From Buxus sempervirens (lineage: Eukaryota; Streptophyta; Magnoliopsida; Buxales; Buxaceae), in the NCBI GenBank assembly GCA_947561395.2, contig OX387184.1, forward strand, positions 55,239,197 through 55,303,196: a DNA stretch of 64,000 nt, written 5' to 3'. The translations under genes were made by a program, and so were the position numbers. This document shows, piece after piece, positions 2 to 61,130 of this stretch. Positions within the stretch are counted from its first letter, which is position 1. Every line of letters starts with the position of its first letter. The notes below the pieces were generated by a model that ran no database searches, was not told where the DNA came from, and saw only the letters and a list, made by a program, of their open reading frames with translations.

Positions 2-1303
2 GACGAACCAGCTTACTGCCTTGTTTTAGAAGAAACCCCAGAAGAAGAAGTACCATGGTTTCAAAACATTAAGAACTTCCTAAATGATCGGAGCTTACCA
101 GAAAATGTCACCTCTACAGAGAAAAGAACAATACAGAGGCTGGCAGGACAGTTCTTACTAAGTGGTGGGCAGTTGTACAAAAGATCACACAATGATATAC
201 TACTTAGATGTGTTGCAAAAACTGAGTCAGAAAGGATAGTTGAAACCGTACATGGAGGAGTGTGTGGACCCCATATGAATGGGCATATGCTTGCCAAGAA
301 GATTCTGCGATTGGGATATTACTGGTCGACTATGGAGCATGATTGCTATATGCACGTTAAAAGGTGTCATTTATGCCAAGTGTACGCGGATAACAAGCAT
401 GCACCCCCAAGTGAATTACACAGTATGACATCTCCGTGGCCTTTTTCTATGTGGGGTATAGATGTCATTGGAATGATCTCTCCAAAGGCATCAAATGGAC
501 ATAGATTTATACTCGTAGCAATTGATTACTTTACCAAGTGGGTAGAAGCGGCTTCTTATGCAAACATTACAAGTAGCCATGTTCTTAAGTTTTTGAAGCA
601 TAACATCATTTGCCGCTATGGTTTGCCAAGTGCCATAGTAACAGACAATGCTTCAAACCTTAAGAACAAAGACATGAGGAAGATGTGTGAACAATTTCAG
701 ATTACCCACCACAAGTCAGCGCCTTACAGACCAAAGATGAATGGGGCAGTGGAAGCAGCCAATAAGAATATAAAGAAGATTATTCAAAAGATGGTAGTGA
801 GTTTTAAAGATTGGCATGAAATGCTGCCACTTGCTCTACATGCTTACAGAACCTCAATTCGGACTTCTACAGGAGCGACCCCATACTCCTTAGTCTATGG
901 AATGGAAGCAGTTTTACCAGTGGAAGTGGAAATACCTTCACTAAGAGTGCTAATGGAAGCAGAATTAGAAGAAACTGAATGGATACAGTCTAGACATGAT
1001 CAACTCAATTTAATTGAAGAAAAGCGTTTGAAGGCACTTAGTCATGGCCAAATATATCGGAAGAGGATGGCTAGGGCTTACAATAAAAAGGTGAAGCCCA
1101 GAACTTTCCAAGAAGGAAATTTGGTATTAAAGAAGATTTTACCCTTTTTGGAAGATCCTCGTGGAAAGTTTAAACCAAATTGGGAAGGACCTTATGTGGT
1201 CAAGAAAGTTCTATCAGGGGGTGCTCTCATCTTAACAGAAATGGATGGAAAGGATTTTCCTGAGCCAATTAACTCTGATGCAGTAAAGAGATATTTTCCA
1301 TGA
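2..1303 (+). CDS. pol: Ty3/gypsy pol polyprotein, integrase end (5'-partial)
   Basis: The frame is open from base 2 to the TGA at 1303 (433 residues), so this is the C-terminal part of a longer polyprotein. In order it shows a linker, an integrase zinc-binding HHCC domain (His near residues 84-95, Cys pair KRCHLC near 122-125), and the catalytic core with Asp in WGIDVIG (about 154), Asp in VTDNAS (about 215) and Glu in NGAVEAANK (about 251). The second Asp and the Glu are separated by 35 residues, the classical DD35E layout. A C-terminal region with the VYGMEAVLPVEVEIP phrase follows. Integrase joins retrotransposon cDNA to host DNA in the nucleus. No frameshift or stop is visible, so this end of the element looks young. 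Protease, RT and RNase H lie outside the window. Confidence 0.93.
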   Translation, partial: DEPAYCLVLEETPEEEVPWFQNIKNFLNDRSLPENVTSTEKRTIQRLAGQFLLSGGQLYKRSHNDILLRCVAKTESERIVETVHGGVCGPHMNGHMLAKKILRLGYYWSTMEHDCYMHVKRCHLCQVYADNKHAPPSELHSMTSPWPFSMWGIDVIGMISPKASNGHRFILVAIDYFTKWVEAASYANITSSHVLKFLKHNIICRYGLPSAIVTDNASNLKNKDMRKMCEQFQITHHKSAPYRPKMNGAVEAANKNIKKIIQKMVVSFKDWHEMLPLALHAYRTSIRTSTGATPYSLVYGMEAVLPVEVEIPSLRVLMEAELEETEWIQSRHDQLNLIEEKRLKALSHGQIYRKRMARAYNKKVKPRTFQEGNLVLKKILPFLEDPRGKFKPNWEGPYVVKKVLSGGALILTEMDGKDFPEPINSDAVKRYFP

Positions 1304-2300: not shown

Positions 2301-4097
2301 CTAATCCCTACTCCCTAACTGCTCCTCAAGCTCCCTAATCCTAGCTGCCTGAGTTGCAATGATTCCAGAAGCACCCTCTGCATCAGGATCACTCAAAAAG
2401 GAGATGACCTCATCTGAAAAAGAAAGCTGGCGCTTCAACGCCCTAAGGTCAGCCAAGGAATCCTGATACTTCTTCCGCATCACACGGACTTCAAAGCGAC
2501 GAGCCTGCCTTTGTTCTTCAAGTTTCTTCTCTATGGCAATGCGGCCAGACTTCTGCTCTTCAAGCTTCCTCTCCAGAACAAGGACTTTTATCCTAAGTTC
2601 TTGAGCCTCCCGTACCCATATTTGTTGAAGCCGCTTATGAGTTACCCTTTCTGACTCCAGAATGTCCTCATAAGTAGGAGGAAGAACTGCAGGAGGATCC
2701 TCTGGTACTGGGGCATGACTCTGCACCTGTTCCTTGATCCAGAAGTGATAGTCCTTCACATGGGACTCAGAAAAGACTGGACCCCGCAGAAAGCAAACAT
2801 AGGACCACTCTTTCATTAATTGAGCATTTAGCCCCATGGTGGCTGAAGTAAGTGGCCCTATAAAGCTCTCATAACCTGTGGGAATCATGATTCCCTGGGT
2901 CGCTCCAAATTGCCGAAGAACCCTCAAAGGAAGATAGAGAACAGCAGATTTCAAACCTGCTAGGGCCAGAAAGTTTCTATCTCTAAAGCTGATCACTGTC
3001 TCTGGAGTGGGCTGATAAGTGCCAGGCCATCTCACTTGATCATCCTGGAGAGTACCCAAGAAAGTGAACCAGCCTTGCTTGCCACCTTGGATGTTAGGAC
3101 ATCCCCTATTGCTCATCAAAACAGGAACTTTCAATCTTGGAAAGAAGCGGCGAGTTATTTCTTCTACCTGGCTAAGATGGTCAAGCAACCAAAGCTGCAG
3201 AAAAAGGGAGTATTTTAATTTATTTCCAAAAAGAAAAAAAAAGAAAAAGAAAAAAAAAGAAAAAAGGAAGAAAAAAAAAAGGAGAAGAAAAAAAAAAAAA
3301 GAGAAGAAGAAGAAAAGAAAAAAAAAAAAAAAAGAAGAAAGGAAAGGAAGAATAGAAAAAAAAAAAATAGAAGAAAAAAAAATACATGCATATTTTACCT
3401 GTAGGATAGGGGCGCAGGCAAGGAAGCGTTTCTTCTTCCTGGAATAACAATCAGTAAGAGCCTGATATATCTCTGCTAGGATCATAGGGGCCAACCTCTC
3501 GCGTTCCCTAACCTGACAGATAACTGAGATGAGAGCCAAGTCAACCTGGTCATCACCCCGTGGAAAAAGCAGCTGATTGACCACTATCAGGGTCAATGCA
3601 TTAAACCTAGAGTCCTTGTCATTACTCCTCAGAAGTTTTTCAGTCAAAAAGGTCTTGGACAAGGTCAATAGTGCATCAGAATTTCCTAAGTCCTTCTTCC
3701 CTATACCCAAGAAAGTGGAGGCCTCTTTTTTATAGCTAAGCTTTAGGGGTGGGTTCACAACTTTTTCAGAAAATCTAAGGCCAAGGATGGTTTCAATCTC
3801 TTCTATGGTAGGAGTCATCTCTTTATCATCAAAACGGAAGAGATTCAGCTCAGGTACCCAATGGCCTATCAAAGCTTCAATGATTTCCCACTTAAAGGGA
3901 ATTTTAGGGAGGTGTAGGATGTGCCCTAAGTGGATGGAATCCCAACGAATCTCCTCATCAAGGGTCATGGAGTTAACCCATCTATCATAAAAGGAATCCA
4001 CAATATTGTACCTGGTAAGATTAGGAGGTTTTGATCTAACAGGTTGTCTTGCAGGAGGAGATTCAAAGGCAGGAGAAAGCGGCGTAGGGGAAGCCAT
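2301..4097 (-). CDS. Antisense cargo gene 1: plant-mobile-domain/DUF7745-like protein, two exons
   Basis: Exon 1 is 4097-3399 and exon 2 is 3194-2301, giving 530 residues. The 204-bp intron (3398-3195) starts GT and ends CTGCAG, is T-rich, and by chance is in frame without stops, so an unspliced reading contains a long Phe run that should not be counted as protein. I chose the ATG at 4097 (TCCATGGCT, good context); the frame is open further upstream but without an ATG. The N-terminal two thirds contain 'HWVPELNLFRFDDKEMTPTI' and 'ETILGL', typical of the plant mobile domain or the related DUF7745 family of plant transposons. The last ~115 residues are a charged coiled coil (repeated LEEQ-type heptads). 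Family members occur in TEs, and in Arabidopsis PMD proteins such as MAIN/MAIL1 affect silencing; the role here is unknown. The gene lies antisense to pol, between pol and the 3' LTR. Confidence 0.72.
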   Translation of the reverse strand: MASPTPLSPAFESPPARQPVRSKPPNLTRYNIVDSFYDRWVNSMTLDEEIRWDSIHLGHILHLPKIPFKWEIIEALIGHWVPELNLFRFDDKEMTPTIEEIETILGLRFSEKVVNPPLKLSYKKEASTFLGIGKKDLGNSDALLTLSKTFLTEKLLRSNDKDSRFNALTLIVVNQLLFPRGDDQVDLALISVICQVRERERLAPMILAEIYQALTDCYSRKKKRFLACAPILQVKYACIFFSSIFFFSILPFLSSFFFFFLFFFFSFFFFLLLFFFFLFSFFFFFFFFLFGNKLKYSLFLQLWLLDHLSQVEEITRRFFPRLKVPVLMSNRGCPNIQGGKQGWFTFLGTLQDDQVRWPGTYQPTPETVISFRDRNFLALAGLKSAVLYLPLRVLRQFGATQGIMIPTGYESFIGPLTSATMGLNAQLMKEWSYVCFLRGPVFSESHVKDYHFWIKEQVQSHAPVPEDPPAVLPPTYEDILESERVTHKRLQQIWVREAQELRIKVLVLERKLEEQKSGRIAIEKKLEEQRQARRFEVRVMRKKYQDSLADLRALKRQLSFSDEVISFLSDPDAEGASGIIATQAARIRELEEQLGSRD

Positions 4098-4188: not shown

Positions 4189-4348
4189 TTTATATAGAAA
4201 AAATCGTAAGACAGTAAATTCCGTAATTATATTACGGGCTAGGCTCGCCCGTATAGAAATTACGGATACAGCTGACCGTGAAAAGTTCACGGGCAGCGCA
4301 CGCCCGTGGTAACTTTACGGGCACAGCCTGCTCGTAGTATAATTACGG
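4189..4348 (-). promoter_or_regulatory. Promoter of antisense gene 1: TATA box abutting a 28-bp dyad array
   Basis: On the minus strand a TATA box (TATATAAA, 4196-4189) lies 92 bp before the ATG at 4097. Directly upstream, 4221-4348, is an array of ACGG...CCGT dyads: ACGGGC, 7 nt, GCCCGT, 9 nt, repeated with a 28-bp step (one step 27). The same array type occurs in the U3 of LTRs A, B and F. TATA function is inferred from sequence and position only. Confidence 0.6.
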
Positions 4349-4558
4349 TTCCTTCGAAAAAATGCAAAAAATGGGAATTTTTAATTTCTTTGGTTTTCCT
4401 AAGCTTCACCTGTCCCTGTTTTAACATTCATCAGATAATAAATACTGTAAATAAAGAAGAAAGAATACAAATGGAAATAAAACAAACTTCTTTTATATAT
4501 ATGAATGTTTACATCACTTTTGCAAAAAAAAAAAAATACAAAGGTACATGGAAGAATC

Positions 4559-7505
4559 CTAATCTAATGGCCATGCAGGTCCGCTCCTACGGCCACGGCC
4601 TCGTCCTCTGCCTCGACCACGGCCTGTAGATCGCCGGCGCTCAAAGACATGCCGCACAATATTACGGGCCGTGCTACGCGTCATCCTGCTCAAAACAGAC
4701 TGAATATCATGCCACATATATAAAGGCACAAAGCCAGCAGTGGGATGATCAGGAGGGACGTACCCTGAAGTATCTACATATCCCGTAGAATCGGGATCAG
4801 ACTCTGTACGGGAAGAATCCGCAGAAGGATCAACAGCAGCATGTGTCACCTCCGCATCCTCCATATCAGGACTAACAGGACCAGCAGGAGCAGATGTCCC
4901 AGGTACATCAACCTCCGGCTCCACAAGCTCAGTAGCAGTCATCCCCACCTCGGGCTCTACAGGATCAGCTGTAGCCTCCTCCATCACGGCAGTCTCCACG
5001 GTAGGCTCTACCACAGCGGCGTCCATAGCCGAATCCATATCAACACCAGCGGATGCAGCAGGAGCAGTCTCAGCTACTGGGGCTGACTCTGGCACGTCCT
5101 CAGCAGCAGGTACAATATCAGCCTCGACCTCGGGCTCTGCTGCAGGAACCTCCTCTGGACTAGGAGACGTCACGAACTCCACCCGTGCCACAGAAAACAC
5201 CTCATCCCGGAAATGCATAGGCACGGGTGAAGCAGGTGAAGAGGGACCAGCTGTGTACTCCTGAAACTAAGAGAAAAATTCAGTCAGAACAAGACAAACA
5301 AATACAAAAGCAGGAATGGAAATAAAAGAAGAAATTAACCTGAGTATCGGAAGGACCCGCCTGGTCCTGTGCATCAGATGGACCCGCCTGATCATGTACA
5401 TCAGATGGACCCTCCTGGCCCTGGGCTCTGGCTAGCTGCCCCCGGAGATCTGAGATAGTGATATAGAGGGCGTCCCGCTCCGCGATCGCTGCATCACGCT
5501 GGCGCTCTAGATCAGCATAGCGAGACCTGATCTCTGCCAACTGAGCCTCCTGAAATAGAGAAGAAAGAAGTCAGAAAAATGCTAAAAGCAGATGAAATAG
5601 AAATAGAAGATCACAAAAGAAGAAAGCATACCGTGGTGTCGTAGGCCCTAATCACTACCCCTCCTATCTCCGTGACTCCGCCACGGACAGGCATGGGTGA
5701 CATGAGGCACCCAACAGAAGATCGCCTGAACCATGCATCATAGTCACCCTCCTCCAATAATGTCTCTGCCTCAGTCCAATCTAAGAACTGGGCAGGATCA
5801 ACAGGCATAGGAGGATAGAGAGGAGTAGTATCTGGCGGGATGGCAGGAATCCGTGGCTCTCCCACATGCTGAAAGAAGAAGCGCTCGCCACAATACCAGA
5901 TGCTGCCCAACTGACCAATAAAGAACTGGTATCTCTGTCGTCTCTGGTCAGGGACAAATGCATCATCTCTGGCTGCCTGCAGGGCTAGCACCTCATGAAT
6001 GTCCTCCATCCTGGGGACAAATAGCTGAAAACAGAACAAGACATCAGATGTGCGATCCAGGAAGAAAAGAAAAGAAGAAGAGGAGGAATTAAAGAAGATT
6101 ACCTCAGACCGGTATAACCTGTCTAAGTGGGCCCGGGCGGACCTGGGACGACTCTTTTCAGAGTCATGCTCTACATGACACCATCTAAGTGCCATGGGAT
6201 ACGTCTCCTCAGGCATCGTAGAGGTAGGGCGGAAATAGGGTATATAAACCCTAGCAAAAAACTGCAAGAAAGAAGAAAACAGTTAGAGGAATATAAAATG
6301 AGAGATAAACAGAAAGAGATAAAGAAAAAGAAGGGAAATAAGGTTCACCTGCAAGAAGGGCCAGAAGAACCTGCACCCAACTCCAGCCCCTCTGGATGTA
6401 GAGAGGCCGCTCACTGATCGGCGCAGGCCAGCCAGAATAGTACCAAATATGAGCGGGCCCCAGGCATACCTCCTCGCCCGCTGCAGATCTCCCAGAAGAC
6501 TCAAGAAGTAAGGACTAACTGAAGTCGTGTCCTCTGGGAAGAAGCAGGATCCCATCATATATAGAAAGAGGAATCGGAAGGCAAATGGGAAAACATGGTC
6601 ACCGGCAGCAAGCTGGCCAAACTGCCTCCTCCTGAAAGTCTCTCTCAACCATGTCAGAGACAATCTAGCTCTCCCCCGATCCCATGCCTCAGGAGGCAGC
6701 ACAATGTATCCAAGATAACCAGCGATCTCCTCAGCCTCTGGCATCGCCATCTCAGTAATAACATCACCGATCATCCTAATCCCGGTGATGAGCGTGAAAT
6801 CAGAAGGCCGGATCCCAATCTCAATATCTGGAAAGTGGAAGCTCAAGGTCTCTGGGAAAAACCTCTCCAATAATGCTGCAATGAGGGCTCGATCTAAGCG
6901 TACGTCCGGGATAGTGATAAACATGCCGAAACCGTACAATCCTAGCTCCCGACGATAGGCCGAACTGCAAGCTCTCAAAAATTTAGTAAAGCTGGCCCAG
7001 CTCCCTCTATAGTGGGACATCGGATACTCCAAAGGGATATCCGCCCTAACGCACGCTGAGGGATGAGTCCTCAAACCATGCAGAAGATCGGTGTCCCTAA
7101 TCTGGGCAGCTACCTCCTCAGGGATCTCAACCCTGGTCCTGACCTCATCTCTGCCACGGCCCCCTCTACGGCCTCCTCTATGGCCCTCATCATGGCCTCC
7201 ATCTCTGCCTCTAGCTCTGCGTCTGCTACGGCTCCTATCTCTGCCAGAAGCCTCAACAGCCGGCTAAAAGAAAATAAGTGAAGAATCAGGAGGATGTATT
7301 TTGGGAAAAGATATGAAATTGCAGAAAGGTTAGAGTATACCTCTGGGGTCGCCTCACGCGAATCCCCAGAAGGGAAATCTGGGATATCAGAATCAGAATC
7401 CCTCTCGGTCCTCGAAGACGAGGCCACATCAGCAGGATCTCGCCTAACCCTCGAGGAGGAAGGCTCATCTGCAGGATCTCGGGAAGCTGATCGAAGGCGG
7501 GCCAT
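4559..7505 (-). CDS. Antisense cargo gene 2: plant-mobile-domain-like protein, six exons
   Basis: Six exons with GT...AG borders, all phase 0: 7505-7341, 7263-6349, 6261-6103, 6024-5632, 5549-5340 and 5260-4559, giving about 847 residues. The last acceptor is ambiguous (AG at 5268-5267 or 5262-5261), adding or removing two codons. Start ATG at 7505. Order: Ser/Asp-rich N-terminus; an Arg/Gly/Asp-rich stretch at about 56-95; then a region with 'ALLERFFPETLSFHFPDIEI' and 'RRYAWGPLIFGTILAGLRR', resembling the plant mobile domain; a short coiled coil in exon 5; repeated AGPSD motifs; an acidic Glu/Pro/Ala region; and an RG-repeat C-terminus. The RG regions suggest nucleic-acid binding, by inference. 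The reading frame is preserved across all five introns, so the gene is likely intact. It is tandem to gene 1 on the strand opposite pol. Confidence 0.72.
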
Positions 7506-8975
7506 CTACGGTTCAAATCAGGGAGTTGGTTAATTATTCTTGTTAAAATTTTTAATTGCTTAATTGATTAACAGGAAAGAAGGCACTTCAGAAACTCCCA
7601 ATCAAATCAAAAGTCAACTGAAGGAGTTTAATTTTCTGTTTGGAAATTTTAGTATGATATTTACTTATCTTTATCTCAATCAGGAAAATATATAAAAATT
7701 ATATATAGGAAGTTATAGGCTTCCTGTATATTCTCTTTATATGAAAAAGAAAAAAAATATGTGTTAAGAATTGATCTTAATTCCTCTTTTGGATTTTCTA
7801 AAGAAACCTAACCATCTAAATTTAATTGGTTGCAGGAAAGAAGTTCAAGCATATGTGTGTTGAGACTGGGATAACAGAAAAAAAAATGCCAAATCAGAAG
7901 TTATCTACTAGAACCACTGAACGAAATGCGTGGAAAGAAAGGCATTGACCAGTATTACTAAAGACAATTCAGTATTACTTCAATGAGTATCCGTTTTTGC
8001 AGAGAAATACTTCAGACAATGGGTTCATCTTAACCAATTACAGAGCAAAGAAGAATTAGGATTTGTTAAAACCATGCAAGCAAGTATAACTTATGCCTGG
8101 GTTGTCAATAAGAAGAATCAGCTGGGTACCCCATGAATAAAATCCAAACTTGGGAAGATGTTCATTCAAACAACTAGAAAAAATACATGGGGATGAAGAA
8201 AACATAAATTTTCGGATAGAACAGTGGTATAAAAATCAAAACAGTGTTGAATCTTAAGGTAAATTAGCATGTGGAGGATTCTGAATCAAAAGCATTCAAT
8301 CAGGAATGGAGGAATTGTACAACAAAGGTTAATACATGCAAGAACAGAAAAATGGCATAACAGAAAAATCAGGCATTATGGCCGATTGCACAGCAACTCC
8401 AGAAGAAGTATATGGCATTCACAGCATAACATTTGCAGCAAAAAAGTAATCATCTAATGCCCATTCAAGAACAGAAATTTCAAAGCATATAGTTTGGAGA
8501 AATTGCTCAAGATGCATTGCGAAGTAGTCAGTCAAAAAAAAAAAAAGAGAGGAATTGATTTTTCGGCATACCTCTGTGCAAGGTAAAAATTTGTATGAGC
8601 TTGCCTCAAAAGCAAGGGTTCTACTCACGTGAGAAAGAAATCGGTTGGCAAAATGGCACAACAGCAAGGTGCAACTGAAATGAAGTGGTTCGCCGGATGA
8701 GGTGAATCGTCGACTGAAGAAAAGGCACCGAAATTAATGAGGAACAATGGTCGCCAAAGAACAATGAGAATCGCCGGAATTAATGAGCAAGTCGTGGCCA
8801 CCGGAAATAGCAAACGTCGCCGGAAATAGGAGAGTCGCCGGAGAGCAATGATCGTCGGAGGATTGTTGAAGGAGAAGAAGGACCGGAGAAAAGGTTACGG
8901 TCGCAGAGAATTAGGGCAGAAATGCGAACAGAGAAGGAAAAGTCGCGTTCGCGAACTTAAGAAGAAGAGTAAAAT
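7506..8975 (-). other. Putative 5' leader and leader intron of antisense gene 2
   Basis: There is no coding sequence here. On the minus strand a good donor (CAC|GTGAGTAG) lies at 8629/8628 and an AG at 7507-7506 abuts the ATG at 7505, so a ~1.1 kb leader intron with a non-coding first exon of about 8629-8950 is plausible. That exon region contains about five copies of a TCCGGCGA-like motif (8690-8850). AT-rich sequence fills the rest. The splice model is inference. Confidence 0.4.
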
Positions 8976-9077
8976 CCGTAACATCAGTACGGGCATCTAA
9001 CGCCCGTGAGCCCACTACGGTCCCAGTTACCCGTGAAACCTCTACGGGCAGGGTCTGTCCGTAAGCACCATACGGGC
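8976..9077. promoter_or_regulatory. 28-bp dyad array upstream of antisense gene 2
   Basis: Degenerate ACGGNC / GNCCGT half-sites alternate with 6-7 and 9 nt spacers over ~100 bp, the layout seen before gene 1 and in the A/B/F LTRs. It lies just upstream of the proposed non-coding first exon of gene 2. No clear TATA box was found next to it. Confidence 0.55.
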
Positions 9078-9417
9078 GAAGCCAAAAATTGCATATTTTT
9101 ATCATTTTCTCACATTTTTAAGAGATTAATGTACATATTAGTTGTAAGTTGCAAGGATTGCCACCTTACCCACTTTTGTTTAAAAATTTTGTCTCAAATC
9201 TCACTTCATAGCCCACAAGTGCTCAGTGAGAAGAGAGAGGAAGATTTGGCCCTTAAGCTGAGGGATTTCTTAGCAAATCTTCCACAATCAATTTTTTTTT
9301 TTTTTCAAAAATCATCCCTTTAATCCTTGCAAAGTGCAATTGATTAGACAAAAATCTCAGAAAGTGCAATTGGTGGGTCTTTTTGCTCTCTGCTTGTAAT
9401 TGGTTCCAATTACCAGC

Positions 9418-9431
9418 AAAGAGGGGGCAGC
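9418..9431 (+). other. Polypurine tract
   Basis: A purine-rich run (AAAGAGGGGGCAGC) immediately precedes the TG of the 3' LTR at 9432, the expected place for plus-strand priming in an LTR retrotransposon. This fixes the LTR border and shows that the antisense genes lie inside the element. Confidence 0.8.
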
Positions 9432-9534
9432 TGTAGACACCCCAAATTGCACTACCAAATGAGAAAATAATAAAAACATGTAATTAGAGCTTAAAACAGG
9501 TCAAAAAGGCCTAAAAATAGAATGAACAGGCTTT

Positions 9535-9638
9535 GCCCGTATTAGCTTCACGGGCTCATTGCGCCCGCAAATTATCTACGGACAAGCACGTCCGTAGTAT
9601 CGATACGGTCCCCATTGGACCGTAATGTATTTACGGGC
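9535..9638. promoter_or_regulatory. U3 dyad array of LTR A
   Basis: ACGG half-sites start at 9550, 9578, 9605 and 9633 (steps 28, 27, 28). Across the 6-7-nt spacer the arms read ACGGGC/GCCCGC, ACGGAC/GTCCGT and ACGGTC/GACCGT, so the variable base changes in both arms in two of three units. The surroundings are AT-rich, making this a local CpG cluster. Confidence 0.75.
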
Positions 9639-10080
9639 ATTAAAGACACGTGCAAGTTTTGTCCTTCTCTCGATTTCCGAGCCTTATTTGAAGTCCAATA
9701 TATCTTTAAACGAGCGGATTATGTCTTTTATTCGCTGAAGTCACCTTGGATGGCTATGGATGGGCATCATCTCTATATTTCACTCTATCCTGAGAATCAG
9801 GATATATCCTTCTGGACCAGCCTTGCCCCTGGGTGTGTCTATAAATAGAGGCTCATTCCTCTAGCTAAGGGCCACGAAATTTTGAGTCCAAGGAATTCTA
9901 AGAAGCTACAAGAGAAGGAAAGGAATCCCTGCTGCTCTGCTTGCTCAATCCAGGTAAGTCCCCTATCCCTTTTTATTTTCTGTCTTCAATTCTAGAAATA
10001 ATAGAATCATCTCTATTGCTGTAGAATAAGGCCATATCTGTTTTTGTATTCCTAAACCTGCCTCCAAGTACCTCAAGGGT

Positions 10081-10261
10081 CTCTCTAGCCGTAAAACGTG
10101 AAGAGAGAACTAGGGGAAAGGGGAACAGGTGGATCCCTAGAATAGAACCCCATATCTGTTTTTTTCTTTTTTTCTAGAATAAGGCCTGTGATTGTGTTTG
10201 TGTAACCAAACCTATCTCTAAGTACCTCAAGGGTCTCTCTAGCCGTAAAACGTGAAGAGAG
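10081..10261 (+). other. Duplicated leader stem-loop in LTR A
   Basis: Two copies (10081-10107, 10235-10261) of a 5-bp stem CTCTC/GAGAG closing the 17-nt segment TAGCCGTAAAACGTGAA, which itself contains CGT/ACG. Both lie downstream of the TATA box, so they should be in the RNA. The same segment occurs in B, F, D and E. Confidence 0.55.
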
Positions 10262-11251
10262 AACTAGGGGAAAAGAGAACAGGTGGATCCGTAGGGTAGA
10301 CCCCCATGTGCTCTAATCTGTGAGATGTGGCTATTTTAAATATTTTGATCATGTTTTAATGCTTTTTATGATGAATCTGAATGAATAACATGAATCTATG
10401 ATGTTTATAGCATGAGATCCCCTATTTTTGCTAAAATTTGGATTTTTGCCACTTTTGCACCTACAGCACTGTTTTCGTGATTTTTGTGGTTTTAGGCTAT
10501 GATCTTGGATTTATCATGATCAATATGGTAGATCTGAATCTAGAAGCCTGAAAATAAATTCTAGGGTTTCATAAGATGTTTTTTAAAATTGTTTTTCATT
10601 ATTGAGATAAGACCCTACGGTCTAAATTCTCCCCTTTTGGTGTTTTTCATAAACGTGAGTCTTTTTGGTTTTGATTTTCAGATTTAATGTGAAATTTGGG
10701 CTTTATCTATGTCCTGGACTATTCAAGTTCAATTTTGAAATATTTTATAAAAATCATATTTTTCCAGATTTCTAGAATTTTGACTTGAAGCCAGATTTTT
10801 GGATTTTTCACTTTAAATTGATCTGATTTTATCTCAATTTTGTTTTGATCATGAAACCCTAGGAATGGTATGATCATGTTTGATAGTTCTGGATCAATCA
10901 GACTATTCATATGAAAAAAACCATATATTTTTATCTTCTTTTTCGTGATTTTTGTGATTTTTATAGCAAGCTTTTCCCTTTAATTTAACATGAACAAATA
11001 CCTGGCAACCACCTTGTGTGGATGAATAGGGGTGCCTAACACCTTCCCCTGTTCATAACTTAATCCCCTTACCCATCTCTGGTGATTTTTTTTAGGAGGG
11101 TTATTTTTACCCTAAAAGTGCCTTTTGTGCTTATTTAATATTCTGGTGTCCATTCACACCTAGATTGAATGGTGGCGACTCTTTGTTTAATTTAATCCCG
11201 TGTGATGATGGAGGAAATCATTAAAGATTCGATTTTTTCCCATGTCTCACA

Positions 11252-32921: not shown

Positions 32922-33037
32922 TGTAGACACCCCAAATTGCACTACAAAATGAGAAAATAATTGAAAACATGTAATTGGGATTTGAAACAGGTCAAAAATG
33001 CATAAAATTACATTAGGCATGCAGTGTCGCTGGTCGT

Positions 33038-33114
33038 GCCCGCAATACATATACGGGCATGCTGTGCTCGTATTAACTCTACGGGCAGCACACGCCCGTA
33101 ATGTATATACGGGC
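33038..33114. promoter_or_regulatory. U3 dyad array of LTR B
   Basis: GCCCGC, 9 nt, ACGGGC, 7 nt, GCTCGT, 9 nt, ACGGGC, 7 nt, GCCCGT, 9 nt, ACGGGC: the 28-bp step and both spacer lengths are exact. Allowing for nested LTR G, it lies about 210 bp before the TATA box, as in A and F. Confidence 0.75.
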
Positions 33115-33941
33115 ACGGGGTTTTTGTGCGAATTTATCATTTTTCAATTTTTGAGCCTTATCTGCATCCAAATATCTCTCTGGGAGTTTCAAATTCTCTT
33201 ATTTATCTTGTGCGCACCTAAATTTGACCTAGATCGCACACCGGGCGTGCCTTTGGCGCGTACCTCGGGATTTTCAGAGTCGCCACTGCCTGAGAGTGCA
33301 GGCAGACACGGTTTTGCCCTAATCGGGTCTAAGTCTGGTCTGCGGCTTTTCAGAGTTCTAGCTAAGTCCTCGGTTACGGTCCGGGGAAGTCCTAAAGACA
33401 CCCCGGTCCGCCCCGTCGGTTTGACGGGTCCCTCGGGTCTCCCTGGTTTCTGAGTCAATTTCACCCTTCCTATACCAGCATGCTACCTTGTTTGGTCTGG
33501 CGGGGCCCGCTGGAGGTGTGGGTCCCTTTTTAGTTGATTTTATCTTTTTATTTATTTAAGCGAAGTGGGTCGGACCCGGGTCCCGTTGGAAGACCCGTGG
33601 GTTGCCATGGTTGGGCCTTGGGCCCAGTTGGGTTATTGGGTAACCCGTTTGGTTATTTTATTTATTTACATATTTCATGGGCTTAGTGGGCTTGGATTTG
33701 GCCCATTAGCCAAGGGTCAAATGGCCCGGGCCTGTTTATTGAAAACAGGCCTGGTATGGGCCAGTCTAAGGTGGGCCCCACAAGTGGGCCCAGGGAGGTG
33801 TTGGTGGGCCCGTATGGGCCCAAAGTCAAAAATGGGCTTAAGAAAGCCCAAAGTGGTTAAGGGGAATGGTTCAGGCCGGTTTAGACCGAAATTGGTCCAA
33901 CCAAACCAAGAAAAGACAAATTTTACATTATTTTATATTTC

Positions 33942-34044
33942 GCCCGTGTTTGCTCCACGGTCTAGCCTGCCCGTGAATGGATTCCGGTCCCCCTTGTCCG
34001 TGAATCAGATACGGTCCAGGCTGGACCGGCCTGAGTTTACGGAC
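33942..34044. promoter_or_regulatory. Internal ACGG/CCGT dyad array in LTR G
   Basis: GCCCGT, 9 nt, ACGGTC, 6 nt, GCCCGT, 9 nt, CCGGTC, 6 nt, GTCCGT, 9 nt, ACGGTC, 6 nt, GGACCG, then ACGGAC. It is the same half-sites as the A-family array with slightly shorter short spacers, and it lies ~770 bp downstream of G's TATA box. Confidence 0.6.
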
Positions 34045-34809
34045 GCGACCTATTTTGCATGTTTGCCGCCGATTTCAATCTGGATTAGTTCCATAGCCTT
34101 CTTGGGATACTTCTGCAGCTGATGTTGAAGTTTCCAACTTCTCCAGATTTGGTACTCACTTCATTTGGTTCAAAAATGTCATTCTTCTTCTTCCTTCTAT
34201 TCTTGGAGGACACCATCTTTCTCTTTTTTGTTGCTCATAGCCAGTTGCCAAGGGAAAATCGGGGAATTTACAGGGCTTAAGAATCTTTTTTAGAGAAGTC
34301 CGTTCTTTCCATATTGAGAGCATATGTCTCAAGTCAATGAAAAGTGTTCCTAGAACACCTCCTTTTTTTCTTAGTTTTGCTTATGAACATCTTTATAAAA
34401 CTGGACTTAAGGCTATCAACAACAAACAGGTTAGTGATATCAAAGTAAAATAATCAAGAGAAAGTGGGGAAAGCTTGAAAGGATAACTTTAATCATATTA
34501 GAAAATGTAACATACTTACAATGCTAGTGACAATCTCTCTGACAAATTCGGCAGCGCTTCCGTGTCCTTCAAAGTTTGTTGGGATGGAAGGGAAAGAATT
34601 TGGTTAAGGTGAATGGGTTCAAGGCCAAATTGAAGTGGATTTGGACATGGTTTTGGGTGATCTTAATGCATAGGGGTAGTTTGGGCATAAAAAGGGCTTT
34701 GGTTTTGGGGAGGTGGAGGTTGAACAGCATTTGGTCGTGGGGAGCTCCAAGAGGGAGAGGGTCATGGCCAGGGAAAGAGGCTTGTCCAAATGAAGGGGGG
34801 TGGCCTCTC

Positions 34810-35046
34810 TATTTATAGGCAAAAAATCCCGTGCCCGTATTTAAACTACGGGCGTACCCTGCCCGTAATTCCATTACGGGCGGCCTTGCCTGTAATTCAA
34901 ATACGGGCAAAAACGAATATTTGCAATTATCGCAGATTCGGCCGTACGGGACGCGTGTTCCGTCGTACGGCGACGCGTGTCTTGCTTCTAGAAGCGTGCC
35001 CGTATTTAAAATACGGGCATGCCCTGCCCGTAATGTAAATACGGTC
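34810..35046 (-). promoter_or_regulatory. LTR G promoter: TATA box abutting two ACGGGC arrays
   Basis: TATAAATA (complement of 34810-34817) lies 16 bp from a dyad array at 34833-34908. A second block at 34996-35046 and a degenerate GCCGTACGG-type stretch (34940-34975) follow. Spacers of 9 and 7 nt are kept. The array directly abuts TATA, as in the promoter of antisense gene 1. Confidence 0.6.
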
Positions 35047-35945
35047 CCGCACGTTTTTAAAATGTGTGGATTTCAAACCTTTATTCATTTTGGCTTTTTG
35101 CAGGATTCTTATCCGATTTTTATGATTATTTTATTAAAAAGCGAGATTCTCTTCATTAAAATATCATTGAACACATTTATTTTATTTATTTTATTGATTT
35201 GTTCCATTTTTGCTGCCTTTTTGCCACATGGGCAGTTTTTCTGAAACTTCAACTGCTCATAACTTCTTCGTCTGGTGTCCGATTTCAACAAACTTAGTGT
35301 CGTTGGAATCAGCTCGGAACCACCTATCCATTGGGATCAAGTTTGGCAGTTGAATTGGGGTCGAGCAAAAAGTCAACTTTTCGCTCCCCAAAAGTTTGAC
35401 CAGCTCATATCTTTTCCATCTGGACTCCGATTCCAGCAAATTCAGTTGCGTTGGAATCGTGTCGAACTGCTTTTTCCAATGATATGGCCAAATTTACTTG
35501 AATCAAAAAGTCAATTTTTGACCCCCTCAGGGTTTGACTTTTAGTTTGACTTTTCACTTTTCTTTATTTTGGGGGTGCAAAAATCAGGTGCTAACATATC
35601 TATTAGAATTCTCTTACTTATCCTCTTTGGCAATGGATTGGCATTATCCTTGTTTTTAATTCAATCTGGAGGATTTTGGCATATTTTTTTGGACCAACCA
35701 TGTTTCCTGGGTTTGCCTATAAATAGAGGGCAGATTCTCAAGCAAATGGCCATTAATTTGAAGTCTGAAGAGCTCCAAGTGAAGAAGGGAATTCCTGCTG
35801 TTTTGCTTCTTCAATCAAGGTAAGTCCATTTTCTCTTTTATTTTCTGTTTTTAATTCTAGAAATAATCTAATCTTCTCCATTGCTGTAGAATAAAGCATT
35901 CTTATACTTGTATTCCCAAACCTGCCTCCAAGTACCTCAAGACTC

Positions 35946-36129
35946 CTCTCTAGCCGTAAAACGTGAAGAGAGAGAGCTAGGGGAAAGGGGAACAGGTGGA
36001 TCCATAGAATAGAACCCTATAGTCTGTTCTTTTCCTTTTTATAGAATAAGGCCATTGATTGTGTTTGTATCCCCAAACCTATCTCCAAGTACCTCAAGAC
36101 TCCTCTCTAGCCGTAAAACGTGAAGAGAG
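35946..36129 (+). other. Duplicated leader stem-loop in LTR B
   Basis: Copies at 35946-35972 and 36103-36129, each with stem CTCTC/GAGAG around TAGCCGTAAAACGTGAA, as in LTR A. Confidence 0.55.
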
Positions 36130-37127
36130 AGCTAGGGGAAAAGAGAACAGGTGGATCCATAGGGTAGACCCCCATGTGCTATAATTTGTGAGATGTGGTT
36201 GCTTTGACTATCTTGCTAATGTTTTAATGATTTTATTTTGAATCTGGAGGAATCCTATGAATCCATGATGTTTATAGCATGAGATCCCCACTTTTTTCTA
36301 TAATTTGGATTTTTCACACCTTTGCACCTACAACACTGTTTTCTTGATTTTGGTGATATTTGGCTAGGATTTTGGATCTGCCATGATCTATATGGTAGAT
36401 CTAAGACCAAAAGCCTGAAAGTAACCTATAGGGTTTCATAATGTGATTTTGAAATTGTTTTAAATCTTGGAGAAAAGATCCTATGGTCTAAACTCTCCCT
36501 TTTGACGTTTTTTCATCAACATGGGTTGAGTGGGGGTTCTATATCTCCACTATTGAGAGATACAGATCAGATCTGTACTCCAAGTAGCTTTGTTCTTCAA
36601 TGATTTAATCAAGAGATTTCAATCTAGTTTTTCAACCTTTTAATGGTTTAGCCTAAAGCTAGTTTTTCCAGTTTCTCTTTAGATTGGTTTTATCTGGTTT
36701 TTATTTCAATTTTATTTTAATCATGAAACCCTTAGAATGGTATGATCATATTGAATGTTCTGAATTAATCTGGATATTCATATGAAAAACCATACACTTT
36801 TGTTTTTTGTTTTTTTATGTTTTTTCCTTTTTTAAGCAAGCATTCTTTATTTTAACATGAACAATACCTGGCAACCACCTTGTGTGGATGAATATGGGTG
36901 CCTAACACCTTCCCCTGTTAATAACCTAATCCCCTTACCCATCTCTGGTTGTTTTTGTTTTGTTTTTTTTAAATAGAGTTATTTTTACTCTAATTTTGCC
37001 TTTTTGTGCTGATTTGATGTTTTTGGTGTCCATTCATACCTAAACAGAATGGTGGTGACTCTTTGTTTTTAATGAATCACGTGTGATGATTAGGAAGTCA
37101 TTAAATTGATTTTCCATATCTCACAAT

Positions 37128-44503: not shown

Positions 44504-46434
44504 TCTATATATACGTTATAATTTACAACTTATGTATGTCAACATCCACATGAACAACACGAGTCCCCAACTGGGATCCCCAACACTCGTCATCTATAAA
44601 ACTACATACTAAGCTTCCAACATTGGATCAACTTCTTATTGAGGGGTATCCAAAATATTATCTAAACTTTGGCCAAACCTCAAAGATAATTCTGATTATA
44701 TCATATTTACCAACTCTTGTGAGTGTCTGACTTTCTTTTGAAAGATTCTTTGATTTCTTTCGAGCCAAATATTATATACATACCTGTGAGACACGGGAAA
44801 AATCACCGGGATGATTTCCCCTCCGTCAACACACAGGCTCAACGCAAAATTGGGAGAGTCGCCACCATTCAGAATTATGGGGTGTGAATGGACACCAAAT
44901 GATTCAAAATAAGCAAAAATAGCCAAAAGACAAATTCAAGGGTAAAAATAACCCTACTTGAAAATCAAATCCAGAGATGGGTAAGGGGATTAGATTATGA
45001 ACGGGGGAAGGTGTTAGGCACCCCCATTCACCCACACAAGGTGGTTGCTAAGTGTTTGTTCATGCAAAAAAAGAAATAAGAAAGCTTGCTAAAAATTATC
45101 AAAAGCCTTGAAAAAGGAACAAGTGTATGATATATTCACACGAAGATCCAAATGGATTTTAGATCTTCTCTTATGTCAATATCATTTCTGAAATGTCATA
45201 AAAGGATAAAAATCCAAGCAAAAGAGTGTACAAAGCCAAGTTGAATCAAATCCGGAAAATTCAGTGAAAAGCAATGCCATTTGCCTTGAAATCATTCAAA
45301 TCCAATTTTAAATGGAACCAAACCAAATCCATTTGAAAATTTATGGTAAATAATAGTCTCATGCAAATTTCACCCCATGCCGATTAAAATCTTAGGAGTT
45401 ATGCTCCTTTGAAGTTGCTGCTGGAGAAAATCAAAAGTGGCAAGTAGGCAAGTTCGGAAAATCACCTAGAAAAATCCACTCCATAAAAATCCATGAAATT
45501 TGGTGTGATTGAAGTCTGTATGGCCATATTTCGAAAGAAACTAGCCTCATACAAAAATTCACTCGGATGTGCCTTGGGCGGTCTGCCGAACAGGCCCCGA
45601 AGATCACAGATTTACCCAGAAAAGTGCCATTGAGCAGTTCTGAGTAAATCTGTTACCAATAATACAAATGGAGTCAAAAAATTATGAAACCAAATGGATT
45701 TGAAAATAGACTCATAAAGGAGTGCCCAGAAACAAAAGTCACTCGAATCGGACTTAAAACGAACACATGGCGCTCCGTCGAAGTGACAAGTTCCGTGTTT
45801 AAACCTGAACTGTCCAATCAACTTCGACAGAGAGGTGTCAAAAATCCGCTTGATAGAAATTAATTAAATTTGGTGGACATAAACTAGACAGCCTCACCTT
45901 TCCCATGGTTCTAGAATCACTCCAAAATTCATCCGGACGATGAAGTTATGAGTGTCCGAAGTCGGGGTACAGTTGCTGTCAAGTTAAGCCTTTTTTGGAG
46001 AAAAACGATTCAAAACTGTGACAAAGTATGTGCAATTCGTGCAAGATGAATACAAAACCTTTAAAAATTATTTCAAAACATTCCAGAATTGATTGAGGCC
46101 ATTTATTTCAGATTTATCACAATAAATGCAATAAACCCAACATATGAGCCTATCCCGCCAAAACGGGTGCAATGTATGTGTAAGTGTGAAAAACTATACA
46201 AGATCCATATAACAACATAGCATGCATTCTCATATTCATCAAAATAAGGTTCTAAAACAACCCAGGGTTCCGTTCCATTATCGTTTCCCTTTGTTCTCTC
46301 TCCCCGTTAAACACGGTTCTTCAAGATAATCATGGGGTACTTTGCATATGGAACGGTTTACATAGATTCAGAAGGCTTATGCAAGATAGGGTTCTAGTAC
46401 TAGGGTCAATCTCCAGTCTCGTTTCTCCTAGATC

Positions 46435-46461
46435 CCGCCCTCACGTTTTACGACTAGGCGG
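46435..46461 (-). other. Leader stem-loop in LTR E
   Basis: Stem CCGCC/GGCGG around TAGTCGTAAAACGTGAG. Stem bases differ from the CTCTC/GAGAG of A/B/F but remain fully paired, while the loop is nearly identical. Confidence 0.55.
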
Positions 46462-46891
46462 AGTCTTGAGATACTTTGAGCCGGGGAAGGATTTTCATAC
46501 ACACAAAAAGGCCTTATTCTACAGAAAGGTAGAAGAAGAGATCTAGATCTAGAAATTTAAAGACAAAAATTAAAAAAGAGGTTTGAGGCTTACCTGGGTT
46601 CTGGAAGCACTTCCGCAGTGGTTTCCCTCTTCTCTCGGAGCTCTTCTTGGCGAGAATTCAAGGCAAGAGTTAATGGCAAGAGAGTTAATGGCCCTTTGCT
46701 TAAGGAGGAGCCTCCTATTTATAAGCAAAGGTTAGGGTTAGGGTTGGTGAGAATGGTAGACACAACATAATGTCTATAGCCCACCAACCTTAACCCTAAG
46801 GCTATCTCCGAGATTTCCCCTCATTTAATGAAGAACATGATGGTAAAAGATGAAATCTCTCGGAAAACCCTAATTTTGAGCAAAACTTATG

Positions 46892-47031
46892 TATCCGACA
46901 TGTTAGGCCGGATACACAAGTGCCTTAATGTATCCGGTATGTAATACCGGATATACTAAGGATTGCTTGTATCCGGTATTGTTCACCGGATACAAAGAGG
47001 AGTACTTGTATCCGGCCTGAGTTACCGGATA
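46892..47031. promoter_or_regulatory. 39-bp-period TATCCGG dyad array of LTR E
   Basis: Four units of TATCCGG, 9 nt, CCGGATA, separated by 16 nt (39-bp step; the first unit is degenerate). It lies ~170 bp upstream of the TATA box in minus orientation. Confidence 0.8.
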
Positions 47032-47216
47032 CAAGTAAAAACTTATTTTCTTCAATTTTTGTGCTGGCTTCCAAGGAGATAATGATTTTTGATGATTATT
47101 GTGCAATTTGGGGTGTCTACAATACCATATATAGTTTTTACCAAATAGTTACTTTGAGACAATCAAACCATATATAGTTTTCACTTATCCCGTGCATCGC
47201 AGGGGGTGTTTGCTAG

Positions 47217-50635: not shown

Positions 50636-51553
50636 TGTAATGACCCGGAACCAGGTCTGCCCATCCAAGGCACTCACCTGTCCTCGGTCATCACGATAAG
50701 GTCTTTCGACCTAATAAAACATGGGTAATTTAAAAACTTTTCCTAAACAAGTAAAAGTGTAGGGACAGTTGATTCATGTGCATATCAAAGTGTGTATAAA
50801 GATAATAAGTCCCGTGGTGGACTTCAAAGTTATATACAAAGACTAATTGTTTATTACAAAAGATAGGTATCTATCACTCATCTCAGTTATAAGGTTTACA
50901 AGTCCAAAAAGGTACAACCACCATATACAGGAAAATAATACTCTAGGTAGGACGGTAATAATCCTCCTCTCTATACCCTGGTGCTTTCTCCTTTCCTTTA
51001 TCCCTAATCCGGTCATTTGCACTGGACATCTACGGCTCTAAAAACAACTTACGAGATCGAATGTCTCAGTAAGCAACACATGCATGATTGATAAAACGCA
51101 GTTCATGCCAATATCATTCGGAATAAATCATGACATGCAAGTAGTTGAAATAATAGTTAAACCTTCCTCAATTCAATATAATACAGGTGGTGTAGTTCTG
51201 TGCTTACGTGTTCAAGTCAAACAATAAAGATATCACACATCAAGTCACAGAAAGTTATTATCTAGGTGTCTAATACATATTGCACATGACCCCATCTAAC
51301 TCCACCGATTCCTCATGGTGGGCTAGGCATCCAACGTCGATTCCCCTTGACGTTAGGCATCCATACGCCAATTCCCCTTGATGTAGGGCATCCATGCCGA
51401 TTCTCCGTAGCTATGGGCATCGGCCACCAATGTTCCTTGGTGTCGGGATGATACAAGATGATTGTAGACACCCCAAATTGCACAAATAATCATCAAAAAT
51501 CATTATCTCCTGGAAAGCCAGCACAGAATTTGAAGAAAATAAACTTTTACCTG

Positions 51554-51680
51554 TATCCGGATACAAGTACTCCTTCCCGTATCCGGATACTCATACCGGA
51601 TACATGTGAGCCTTAGTGTATCCGGTACCATGTACCGGATACCTTAAAGCCCTTTGTTATCCGGCCTGATATACCGGATA
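51554..51680. promoter_or_regulatory. 39-bp-period TATCCGG dyad array of LTR D
   Basis: Three full TATCCGG, 9 nt, CCGGATA units separated by 16 nt, plus a partial unit at 51554. Spacing is identical to LTR E although several spacer bases differ. It ends ~158 bp before the TATA box. Confidence 0.8.
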
Positions 51681-52084
51681 CCTTAAGTTTGCTCAAAATT
51701 AGGGTTTTCCGAGAGCTTTTCACTTTTACCATCATGTCCCTCATTAAATGAGGGGAAATCGCGGAAATAACCTTAGGGTTTAGGTTGGGGGGGTTCTAGA
51801 CATTAATTTGTGTCTACCAATGACCTTAGCCTTTGCCTATAAATAGGAGCCTCCTCCTTGAGCAAATGGCACTCAACTCTTGTTTTGAATTCTCGCAAAG
51901 AAGAACTCCAAGAGAAGAAGAAAACCGCTGCGGAATCGCCTTCAGAACTCAGGTAAGCCTCAACTTTTCTTTTTATTTTCTGTCTTTACATTCCTAGATC
52001 TAGATCTCTTCTTCTACCTTTCTGTAGTGTAAAGCCTTGTTTGTATGTGTGGAAATCCTTCCCCGGCTCAAAGTATCTCAAGAC

Positions 52085-52111
52085 TCCCCTAGCCGTAAAA
52101 CGTGAAGGCGG
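52085..52111 (+). other. Leader stem-loop in LTR D
   Basis: TCCCC/GGCGG around TAGCCGTAAAACGTGAA, pairing with one mismatch and one wobble. It is a slightly decayed form of the E-type stem. Confidence 0.45.
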
Positions 52112-60507: not shown

Positions 60508-60691
60508 CTCTCTTCACGTTTTACGGCTAGAGAGACTCTTGAGGTACTTAGAGATAGGTTTGGTTACACAAACACAATCAAAGGCCTTATTCTATGAAAA
60601 AAAAAGAAAAAAACAGATATGGGGTTCTATTCTAGGGATCCACCTGTTCCCCTTTCCCCTAGTTCTCTCTTCACGTTTTACGGCTAGAGAG
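60508..60691 (-). other. Duplicated leader stem-loop in LTR F
   Basis: Copies at 60508-60534 and 60665-60691 with stem CTCTC/GAGAG and the TAGCCGTAAAACGTGAA loop, as in A and B. Confidence 0.55.
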
Positions 60692-61130
60692 ACCCTTGAG
60701 GTACTTGGAGACAAGTTTAGGAATACAAAATAGATATGGCCTTATTCTACAGCAATAGAGATGATCCTATTACTTCTAGAATTGAAGACAGAAAATAAAA
60801 AGGGATAGGGGACTTACCTGGATTGAGCAGGCAGAGCAGCAGGGATTCCTTTCCTTCTCTTGGAGCTTTTGATTCTTCAAAATTTCGTGGCCCTAAGCTA
60901 GAGGAGAGAGCCTCTATTTATAGACACACCCAGGGGCATGGTTGGTCCAAGGTTTGGCAGGATAGAGTTTCAGTTTGAGTTAAACACAAGATCATGTCAA
61001 TCCTTTATCCACAAGGATAAATGAGATAATTCGAATGGATAAATAAGAGGATTCGCTTATCCAAGAGAGATATTTGGGTGCAGATAAGGCTCAAAAATCA
61101 AAAAGGTAAAATTCACACAAAGACCCCCGT

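Follow-up and report, generated by a model that had tools for sequence, protein, structure and literature searches.

The locus analysed here is a 64-kb window of the Buxus sempervirens genome (OX387184.1), from which all of our DNA evidence comes and which holds the 3' part of an LTR retrotransposon, hereafter element A, together with several further LTRs (Table 1). In element A, the sense integrase region is followed by two antisense genes and then by the 3' LTR, directly upstream of which lies a purine-rich tract. The predicted reading frames of the two antisense genes are intact, and the products are plant mobile domain (PMD) proteins. The product of gene 1 matches the DUF7745 (2.2e-31) and PMD (8.8e-21) profiles. 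In gene 2, the predicted coding exons each have a length that is a multiple of three and, by inspection, the protein has an RS/RG-rich N terminus and ends in a GRGRGRGRGR tail. This gene order is that of Tat/Ogre elements with a PMD ORF, an assignment judged on the 3' part of the element that the window contains; as the reverse transcriptase lies outside, element A is apparently Ty3/gypsy, judged from its antisense PMD genes. Pfam returned nothing besides DUF7745/PMD for either antisense gene up to an E value of 0.1. Word searches of a database including plant proteins found no homologues at E ≤ 0.001 for gene 1 (residues 1-260, unspliced frame) or gene 2 (spliced, residues 100-560), and a PDB sequence search with the gene-2 PMD ORF gave no match at E ≤ 1. 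A single-sequence structure model of the gene-2 PMD exon had a pLDDT of 36.8 and was unusable.

Table 1. Genes, LTRs and dyad arrays in the 64-kb window (positions in the window).
Feature	Position	Strand	Remarks
3' end of pol with integrase core, element A	2..1303	+	Open frame; PF00665 rve, E 4.1e-11 on 500-1303
Antisense gene 1, DUF7745/PMD	2301..4097	-	Exons 4097-3399 and 3194-2301 (predicted splice); intact, 530 aa
Gene 1 TATA box, TATATAAA	4189..4196	-	Starts at 23rd nt from array edge
Array 1, before antisense gene 1	4219..4350	.	5 dyad units
Antisense gene 2, PMD	4559..7505	-	PMD 4.9e-23; six predicted coding exons; intact, 847 aa
Array 2, upstream of gene 2	8974..9077	.	4 dyad units; 1.47 kb before gene 2 ATG
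3' LTR of element A	9432..11251	+	TGTAGACACC...TCTCACA
Array 3, in U3 of LTR A (U3A)	9535..9638	.	4 dyad units; LTR TATA from 202nd nt downstream
5' LTR B, split by LTR E	32922..37125	+	Followed by PBS-like TGGCGACTCTACTAGGGA
U3 array of LTR B (U3B)	33038..33114	.	3 units
Solo LTR E, another family, nested in LTR B	33209..35596	-	Target duplication TATCT
Array E3	33942..34044	.	4 units; TATAAAAT from 5th nt downstream, minus strand
Array E2	34833..34908	.	3 units; TATAAATA from 16th nt downstream, minus strand
Array E1	34998..35046	.	2 units
Solo LTR C	44785..47121	-	Target duplication GGTAT
Type-2 array in LTR C	46892..47031	.	4 units TATCCGG-N9-CCGGATA (one with 1 mismatch); period 39
Solo LTR D	51463..53726	+	Target duplication ATGAT
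Type-2 array in LTR D	51580..51680	.	3 intact units; period 39
Solo LTR G, family of A	59527..61337	-	Target duplication CATAA
U3 array of LTR G (U3G)	61131..61235	.	4 units, one decayed (61187)

The arrays are built from a 21-bp dyad, GMCCGTR-N7-YACGGKC, whose 6-mers lie 9 nt apart and which recurs once per 27 or 28 bp. There are 29 of these type-1 units in eight arrays (three in element A, three in LTR E, one in LTR B and one in LTR G), with 2 to 5 units per array; 28 are array matches with at most two mismatches and one is an in-register unit with three (61187), while a three-mismatch match at 34010, out of register and overlapping array E3, was excluded. When the window was scanned for pairs of GMCCGT and ACGGKC (spacings 0-30, both orders, at most two mismatches), GMCCGT-N9-ACGGKC was the commonest spacing (29 matches, 28 in arrays), followed by ACGGKC-N7-GMCCGT (20 matches, 15 in arrays) and GMCCGT-N15-ACGGKC (11 matches, 10 in arrays). 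The pattern of two successive units, CCGT-N9-ACGGNC-N6/7-GNCCGT-N9-ACGG, has eight exact matches in the window versus none in 100 dinucleotide shuffles. All eight arrays have whole N9 units at both ends, and outside the 16 ends, at the expected distance of 12 or 13, the best would-be half-site agrees at 4 of 6 positions. It follows from these array ends that the N9 dyad is the unit and the 7-nt spacer a linker, which measures 7 nt in 15 steps and 6 nt in six; ACGGKC-N7-GMCCGT, with its spacing of 6 or 7 and no array beginning or ending there, was rejected as the unit. Within units, the first base of the spacer is a purine in 28/29 and the last a pyrimidine in 29/29, and the variable bases of the two half-sites do not covary (11/29 complementary versus 13.0 in shuffles), which fits half-sites that are read separately. 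The CpG observed/expected ratio is 1.03-1.73 in five arrays (gene 1, gene 2, U3A, G and C) versus 0.34 in the rest of LTR A.

A preliminary description of the window had reported arrays at 4221-4348, 8976-9077 and 9535-9638, in agreement with ours to within 2 bp, and had read them as half-sites alternating with 7- and 9-nt spacers in a 28-bp dyad array. The 9-nt spacing does lie within the unit, but the 7 nt are a linker of 6 or 7 nt, hence a period of 27 or 28. Recurrence in LTRs B and G was borne out, and the nested LTR E may be the element then labelled F. Also as described, one array adjoins the gene 1 TATA box and another lies about 200 bp upstream of that of the LTR, both boxes matching TATAWAW, a proximity that is not rare, since a TATA box occurs within 210 nt of 18% of random window positions. 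The array said to precede gene 2 is indeed upstream of it, but at a distance across which a 5'-UTR intron presumably lies, and with no TATAWAW within 400 nt downstream. Nor is there one in the 400 nt that follow the U3B array, a region interrupted by LTR E.

The arrays are conserved mainly in their half-sites. Over all unit pairs of the gene-1, gene-2 and U3A arrays, core positions agree in 503/560 comparisons and spacers in 185/504, and between the U3 arrays of A, B and G, compared pairwise, in 94/100 and 60/90, a contrast that is partly circular because core positions were defined from the compared units. Since their cores agree and their spacers agree little, the three arrays of element A do not resemble recent duplicates. 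Between LTRs A and G, 41/48 half-site positions agree, no higher a share than in the remainder of the LTR (1485/1687), i.e., the array turns over and the core alone is held; in LTR B, the first unit present in A and G has been deleted. CpGs are retained preferentially in half-sites, both between A and G (7/8 versus 11/29 elsewhere, P 0.019) and between LTRs C and D (7/7 versus 32/54, P 0.042).

LTRs C and D, whose arrays are absent from the preliminary description and bear most on the identity of the regulator, reveal a second specificity. LTR C and LTR A have their ends, promoter region and U5 in common (six aligned blocks, 64-100% identity), and LTR D is likewise related to A. At about the place of A's U3 array, both carry type-2 arrays, which have the CCG-N11-CGG geometry in common with type 1 while their outer letters differ, and in which the period has moved from 28 to 39, a shift of about one helical turn. 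The counterpart in D of C's first unit is partly deleted. Identity between C and D is 51/52 in half-sites, 15/27 in spacers, 33/48 in linkers and 1838/2127 in the rest of the LTR. New letters on an old geometry, at about the same U3 place in related LTRs, are what would be expected of a protein and a target that co-evolve.

Taken together, the fixed N9 spacing, the arrays that end on whole units, the purine and pyrimidine at the spacer ends, the cores kept over spacers and the retained half-site CpGs argue that the arrays are probably clusters of operators for a symmetric dimeric DNA-binding protein. Each 21-bp unit would be the site for one symmetric dimer, and two to five adjacent units would place several dimers near a promoter. 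In element A, common operators at the LTR promoter and before each PMD gene would set genomic RNA and accessory output together. The most economical interpretation of these sequences is a single factor for the sense LTR promoter and for those of both antisense genes; the preliminary description had proposed as much, and the fixed geometry and core agreement are in its favour, but no TATA box lies close to the array of gene 2. The likeliest factor would be encoded by the element, with one or both PMD proteins, perhaps as a pair comparable to MAIN and MAIL1 in Arabidopsis, binding the operators of their own family, activating or un-silencing the LTR and regulating themselves, as VANC proteins do on VANDAL elements. 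Elements would then diverge through the letters of their half-sites while the dimer spacing stays constant. We put the probability of this whole model, in which we infer that a protein binds, that it is dimeric, which protein it is and the sign of regulation, at roughly 0.4. A more tentative extension is that Gypsy PMD proteins may be sequence-specific, self-regulating activators or anti-silencers of CCG-N11-CGG dyads with family-private outer bases, and that MAIN and MAIL1 may descend from them or share their ancestry. Related VANC families do switch target motifs (PMC5735166), PMD-A clades are reported to be encoded by Gypsy elements only (PMC5418596), and 57% of Ogre elements are reported to contain a PMD (PMC6317226); the PMD literature cited here gives no molecular function for PMD and reports no DNA binding by a PMD protein. 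A motif linked to PMD proteins in Arabidopsis, the MAIN/MAIL1 DOWN motif, whose copy in the MORC1 promoter is CATGCAGTTT (PMC9899485), has no match in any array; its seven one-mismatch matches in the window, versus 6.06 expected, all lie outside arrays (the nearest 11 bp outside that of U3B), and this reading of the units was discarded. Further points against the PMD model are that C and D are solo LTRs and therefore offer no cargo genes to compare, that half-sites fare no better than other LTR sequence between A and G, and that LTR E has the specificity of A.

This last point is explained more directly by a host dimeric transcription factor driving all three promoters, with each element family tapping its own member of a group of related host factors that have the dimer geometry in common, which appears to be a close rival and a real, if not the leading, possibility. 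LTR E bears A's units and is otherwise nearly dissimilar to LTR A: all matches between the two with E below 0.03 are array to array, and outside the arrays there are weak short matches only (E 0.03 or worse), e.g., TATAAATAGAG. The CGTR/YACG ends also resemble the half-sites of NAC and VOZ factors, but dimers of these have 7 nt between CGT and ACG, versus 9 here. AACGG, the core of the MSA element recognised by MYB3R, is found in 0/58 half-sites, and a MYB3R reading was rejected. Less readily accommodated by a host factor are the change of letters at about one U3 position between related LTR families and the fact that every type-1 or type-2 unit found in the window sits in an LTR element. For the Sirevirus motifs discussed below, factor sites matched by the authors were mainly stress related (PMC2829016), as a host factor would have it.

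The palindromes might instead matter as structure, forming hairpins or cruciforms that give rise to siRNAs or draw them in, or be products of inverted duplication rather than protein sites, which we consider improbable. LTR palindromes of maize Sireviruses are hotspots of small-RNA mapping (PMC5311732), and five of six folded arrays beat dinucleotide shuffles (z -5.1 to -9.1; gene-2 array, -1.75). When half-sites were fixed and spacers shuffled, the gene-1, C and D arrays still folded better on both strands (z -2.0 to -4.0), as did E2 and E3 on one strand (P 0.015 and 0.010), but E1 was not clearly better (P 0.07-0.08), U3B was marginal on one strand (P 0.048), and the gene-2, U3A and U3G arrays were no better than these controls. 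Moreover, a hairpin needs neither a constant 9-nt spacer nor the R/Y ends, and the variable half-site bases do not covary. With structure beyond the half-sites in some arrays only, an RNA or DNA hairpin was rejected as the main constraint, and it stays a rival. That the arrays are passive tandem repeats without a role, which slippage, gene conversion or template switching spread between U3 and internal positions, is very unlikely: tandem repeats of unknown function are common near the 3' LTR of Retand elements (PMC11963269) and unit number ranges from 2 to 5, but spacers in element A agree far less than cores, CpGs are kept in half-sites, and most arrays are placed near TATA boxes.

Contrary to the preliminary description, which knew of no such module, close precedents exist. 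In Sireviruses, repeated palindromes known as RM boxes, of which 12 of 13 have a CGG-CCG core, precede the TATA box within U3, and further copies precede env (PMC2829016). Element A similarly has palindromes in U3 upstream of TATA, with a rigid CCG-N11-CGG unit, and extra copies 5' of its accessory genes (arrays 1 and 2), and in both cases the clusters are CpG rich with letters that vary between elements (PMC2829016). However, Sireviruses are Ty1/copia elements with env, and their boxes are short palindromes with small or no spacers and with CGG preceding CCG, for which that account mentions no fixed period (PMC2829016), unlike the 28- or 39-bp period here; the two antisense PMD genes of element A point to Ty3/gypsy, and we do not class it as a Sirevirus. 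In Retand elements, antisense genes and tandem repeats have already been discussed as possibly regulatory, but the encoded domain is TRP28, not PMD, and the discussion describes no dyad common to LTR and gene promoters (PMC11963269). Ogre-type Tat elements resemble element A as Ty3/gypsy elements with an extra PMD ORF, although candidate operator arrays like those of element A go unmentioned in their description (PMC6317226). VANDAL elements have family-specific short motifs in tandem clusters in noncoding regions, as our type-1 and type-2 arrays are family-specific, clustered and noncoding, and binding and demethylation by VANC have been shown (PMC5735166, PMC10398659). The unrelated element AT9TSD1 has VANC6 motifs, a parallel to LTR E with A's units, but VANC motifs are 8-9 bp and are not described there as dimer dyads (PMC5735166, PMC10398659). 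VANDALs are also DNA transposons encoding VANC, whereas element A is an LTR element whose antisense genes have only DUF7745/PMD matches in Pfam.

The module matters because PMD genes are common among plant Gypsy elements, and PMD proteins of the host participate in transposon silencing. A 21-bp candidate operator beside both PMD genes and the LTR is a concrete probe for DNA binding by PMD proteins, the occurrence of two specificities with a shared geometry opens the co-evolution of element and regulator to direct testing, and the Sirevirus design of a motif in LTR and accessory promoter is extended from Ty1/copia to an element that carries antisense genes and is apparently Ty3/gypsy. Among viral contigs, we found no relative of the integrase and no pair of type-1 units. 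Single type-2 dyads, whose matches there are uninformative, match 107 stretches, and among the 80 listed of these, two contigs (L050 and L091) have more than one exact unit; L050 looks, by inspection, like a phage contig with repeats of its own.

Half-sites ACGGNC and GNCCGT are clustered in element A, an LTR retrotransposon with two antisense genes, at the places where the preliminary description had reported them. When all spacings from 0 to 30 were scanned, GMCCGT-N9-ACGGKC was the single dominant arrangement (29 matches with at most two mismatches, 28 of them in arrays). The 28 in-array matches and one decayed unit at 61187 make up the 29 type 1 units of eight arrays, a count that leaves out an out-of-register, three-mismatch match at 34010. 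The first spacer base is a purine in 28/29 units and the last is a pyrimidine in 29/29, giving the unit GMCCGTR-N7-YACGGKC, and the spacers are richer in A+T than the linkers (77% vs 43%). All eight arrays have a whole unit at both ends; 15 of the steps from unit to unit measure 28 bp and six measure 27 bp, and eight exact unit pairs occur in the window vs none in 100 shuffles.

Features of the window that bear on the arrays or lie near them
Feature	Position	Strand	Remarks
Element A pol (integrase core)	from base 2		start lies inside pol
Gene 1 of element A	between integrase core and 3' LTR	antisense	two predicted exons; intact 530-aa frame; DUF7745 and plant mobile domain (PMD)
Gene 2 of element A	between integrase core and 3' LTR	antisense	six predicted coding exons, all multiples of three; intact 847-aa frame; PMD
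3' LTR of element A	9432-11251		purine-rich tract directly before
Gene-1 array	4219-4350		TATA box from 23rd nt off edge facing gene 1
Gene-2 array	8974-9077		1.47 kb upstream of gene-2 start codon
U3A array	9535-9638		in U3 of element A; LTR TATA from 202nd nt
Lectin receptor kinase copies	17207-19663, 26193-28658, 47813-50097		third copy broken: apparent frame change near 48.4 kb, stop near 49.5 kb
Solo LTR E	33209-35596	minus	nested in LTR B; target duplication TATCT; three arrays
Array E3	33942-34044		main TATA box of LTR E lies about 0.77 kb upstream
Apparent solo LTR, presumably Sirevirus-type	38920-39940	minus	own GAACGTTC palindrome array, upstream of TATTTAAG box

The sample is one window, in which arrays of type 1 or of a second type occur in five LTRs and the nested LTR E; B and G (a solo LTR), which belong to the family of A, have theirs at the aligned place. 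On the strand presumed to be transcribed, 8/10 arrays have TATAWAW no more than 210 nt away, against a random-position background of 18% (2.6% within 31 nt), a count in which the arrays are not independent because several LTRs are related and two E arrays share one TATA box. The two exceptions are the gene-2 array, which has no TATAWAW within 400 nt, and that of LTR B, which is interrupted by LTR E.

The second unit, TATCCGG-N9-CCGGATA, is found in LTRs C and D at about the same U3 place as the type 1 array of A. Solo LTR C aligns with LTR A in six blocks of 64-100% identity, sharing its ends, promoter region and U5, and LTR D matches LTR A also. LTR C contains four type 2 units, of which one has a mismatch, and LTR D contains three; their period of 39 is 11 bp longer than that of type 1, a difference of about one helical turn. 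Aligned by spacer, both types read CCG-N11-CGG, and the letters around this core differ. A scan of the window for clusters of inverted repeats, made without a preset motif, listed 15 rows: 12 were arrays of these two types, one was the GAACGTTC array (39.7-39.9 kb), and the last two belonged to a tandem repeat of 36 bp at 41.9 kb. No row came from ten Markov-shuffled windows.

Pairwise agreement indicates that half-sites persist within fast-changing arrays. Among the U3 arrays of A, B and G, it is 94/100 for the core, 9/20 for the variable half-site base and 60/90 for spacers, a contrast that is partly circular because these very units had served to define the core; this circularity touches the C-D comparison and the CpG counts less. 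Between A and G, half-sites agree at 41/48, spacers at 22/36, linkers at 5/20 and the rest of the LTR, than which half-sites are no better kept, at 1485/1687. The corresponding values for C and D are 51/52, 15/27, 33/48 and 1838/2127. Half-site CpGs are kept at 7/8 in A-G (11/29 elsewhere) and 7/7 in C-D (32/54 elsewhere).

We consider it probable (roughly 0.8) that the arrays are operators: a dimeric DNA-binding protein would fill several neighbouring units, and the bound dimers would govern three promoters, those of the LTR and of antisense genes 1 and 2. The binder may be an element-encoded PMD protein, which we narrowly favour because the PMD genes and the LTR have putative operators beside them, because related families changed letters and kept geometry, because only Gypsy elements are reported to encode PMD-A clades (PMC5418596), and because MAIN and MAIL1, Arabidopsis PMD proteins, interact (PMC7156037). 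Letters are likewise switched between related families in the targets of VANC, the anti-silencing proteins of VANDAL elements (PMC5735166). A host factor may instead bind type 1 units, as suggested by the presence of A's units in LTR E, which otherwise differs from A: all matches between them with E below 0.03 are array-array, and the remainder are weak and short (e.g., TATAAATAGAG). However, VANC6 motifs occur in AT9TSD1, an element unrelated to VANDAL (PMC5735166), and with this parallel LTR E does not decide between the two binders. Action through a hairpin or siRNA has some support from three arrays on both strands and from E2 and E3 on one strand, but little or none from the other five, and the two half-sites of a unit show no covariation at their variable bases (11/29 vs 13.0 expected), as would be expected of half-sites read separately rather than of paired stems.

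The closest precedent is the repeated motif of Sireviruses, which also have a polyC-rich signal: CpG-rich palindromes, almost all built on a CGG-CCG core and varying in letters from element to element, in U3 before the TATA and again upstream of env (PMC2829016). Retand elements combine antisense TRP28 genes with tandem arrays for which a regulatory role was suggested (PMC11963269), antisense genes with their own promoters have been reviewed (PMC7264820), and PMD is reported in 57% of Ogre elements (PMC6317226). As far as we found, the rigid dimer geometry, the presence of two unit types near a single U3 position and the repetition of presumed LTR operators at both antisense PMD genes are together apparently new; no prior report of this combination appeared among the open-licence papers that our searches listed, few of which were covered in depth, and this is weak evidence of absence.

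Several observations concern individual features. The window is plant DNA with several LTR elements and G-type lectin receptor kinases, one of which has its best match in Tetracentron sinense (66% identity). The splice models of genes 1 and 2 derive from sequence only, and a search with segments of their proteins found no homologue at E <= 0.001. The gene-1 array is overall a quasi-palindrome, perhaps formed via inverted duplication, whose spacers mirror each other (22/35 vs 13.0 expected, P 0.015); so do those of E2 (14/21 vs 6.9, P 0.009), and those of the other six type 1 arrays do not. From the 5th nt off array E3 there is a second TATAAAAT, which raises the question of a second promoter within LTR E. 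The most degenerate E3 unit (34024-34044) nearly shares its spacer, and one half-site, with the first unit of LTR C (47009-47031) in an 18-base match with two differences (E 0.88), possibly an intermediate of the two unit types or chance. Several TATCCGG...CCGGATA palindromes, apparently unrelated to the window arrays, lie between long reading frames of a phage-like contig (L050:3480-3790). Finally, the LTR at 38920-39940, which appears to be Sirevirus-type, judged in part from the polyC-rich signal described for that group (PMC2829016), carries a C-rich stretch, CACCCCCCTCTAGGTG, close to what is presumably its 3' end, and its GAACGTTC palindrome resembles a heat-shock element.
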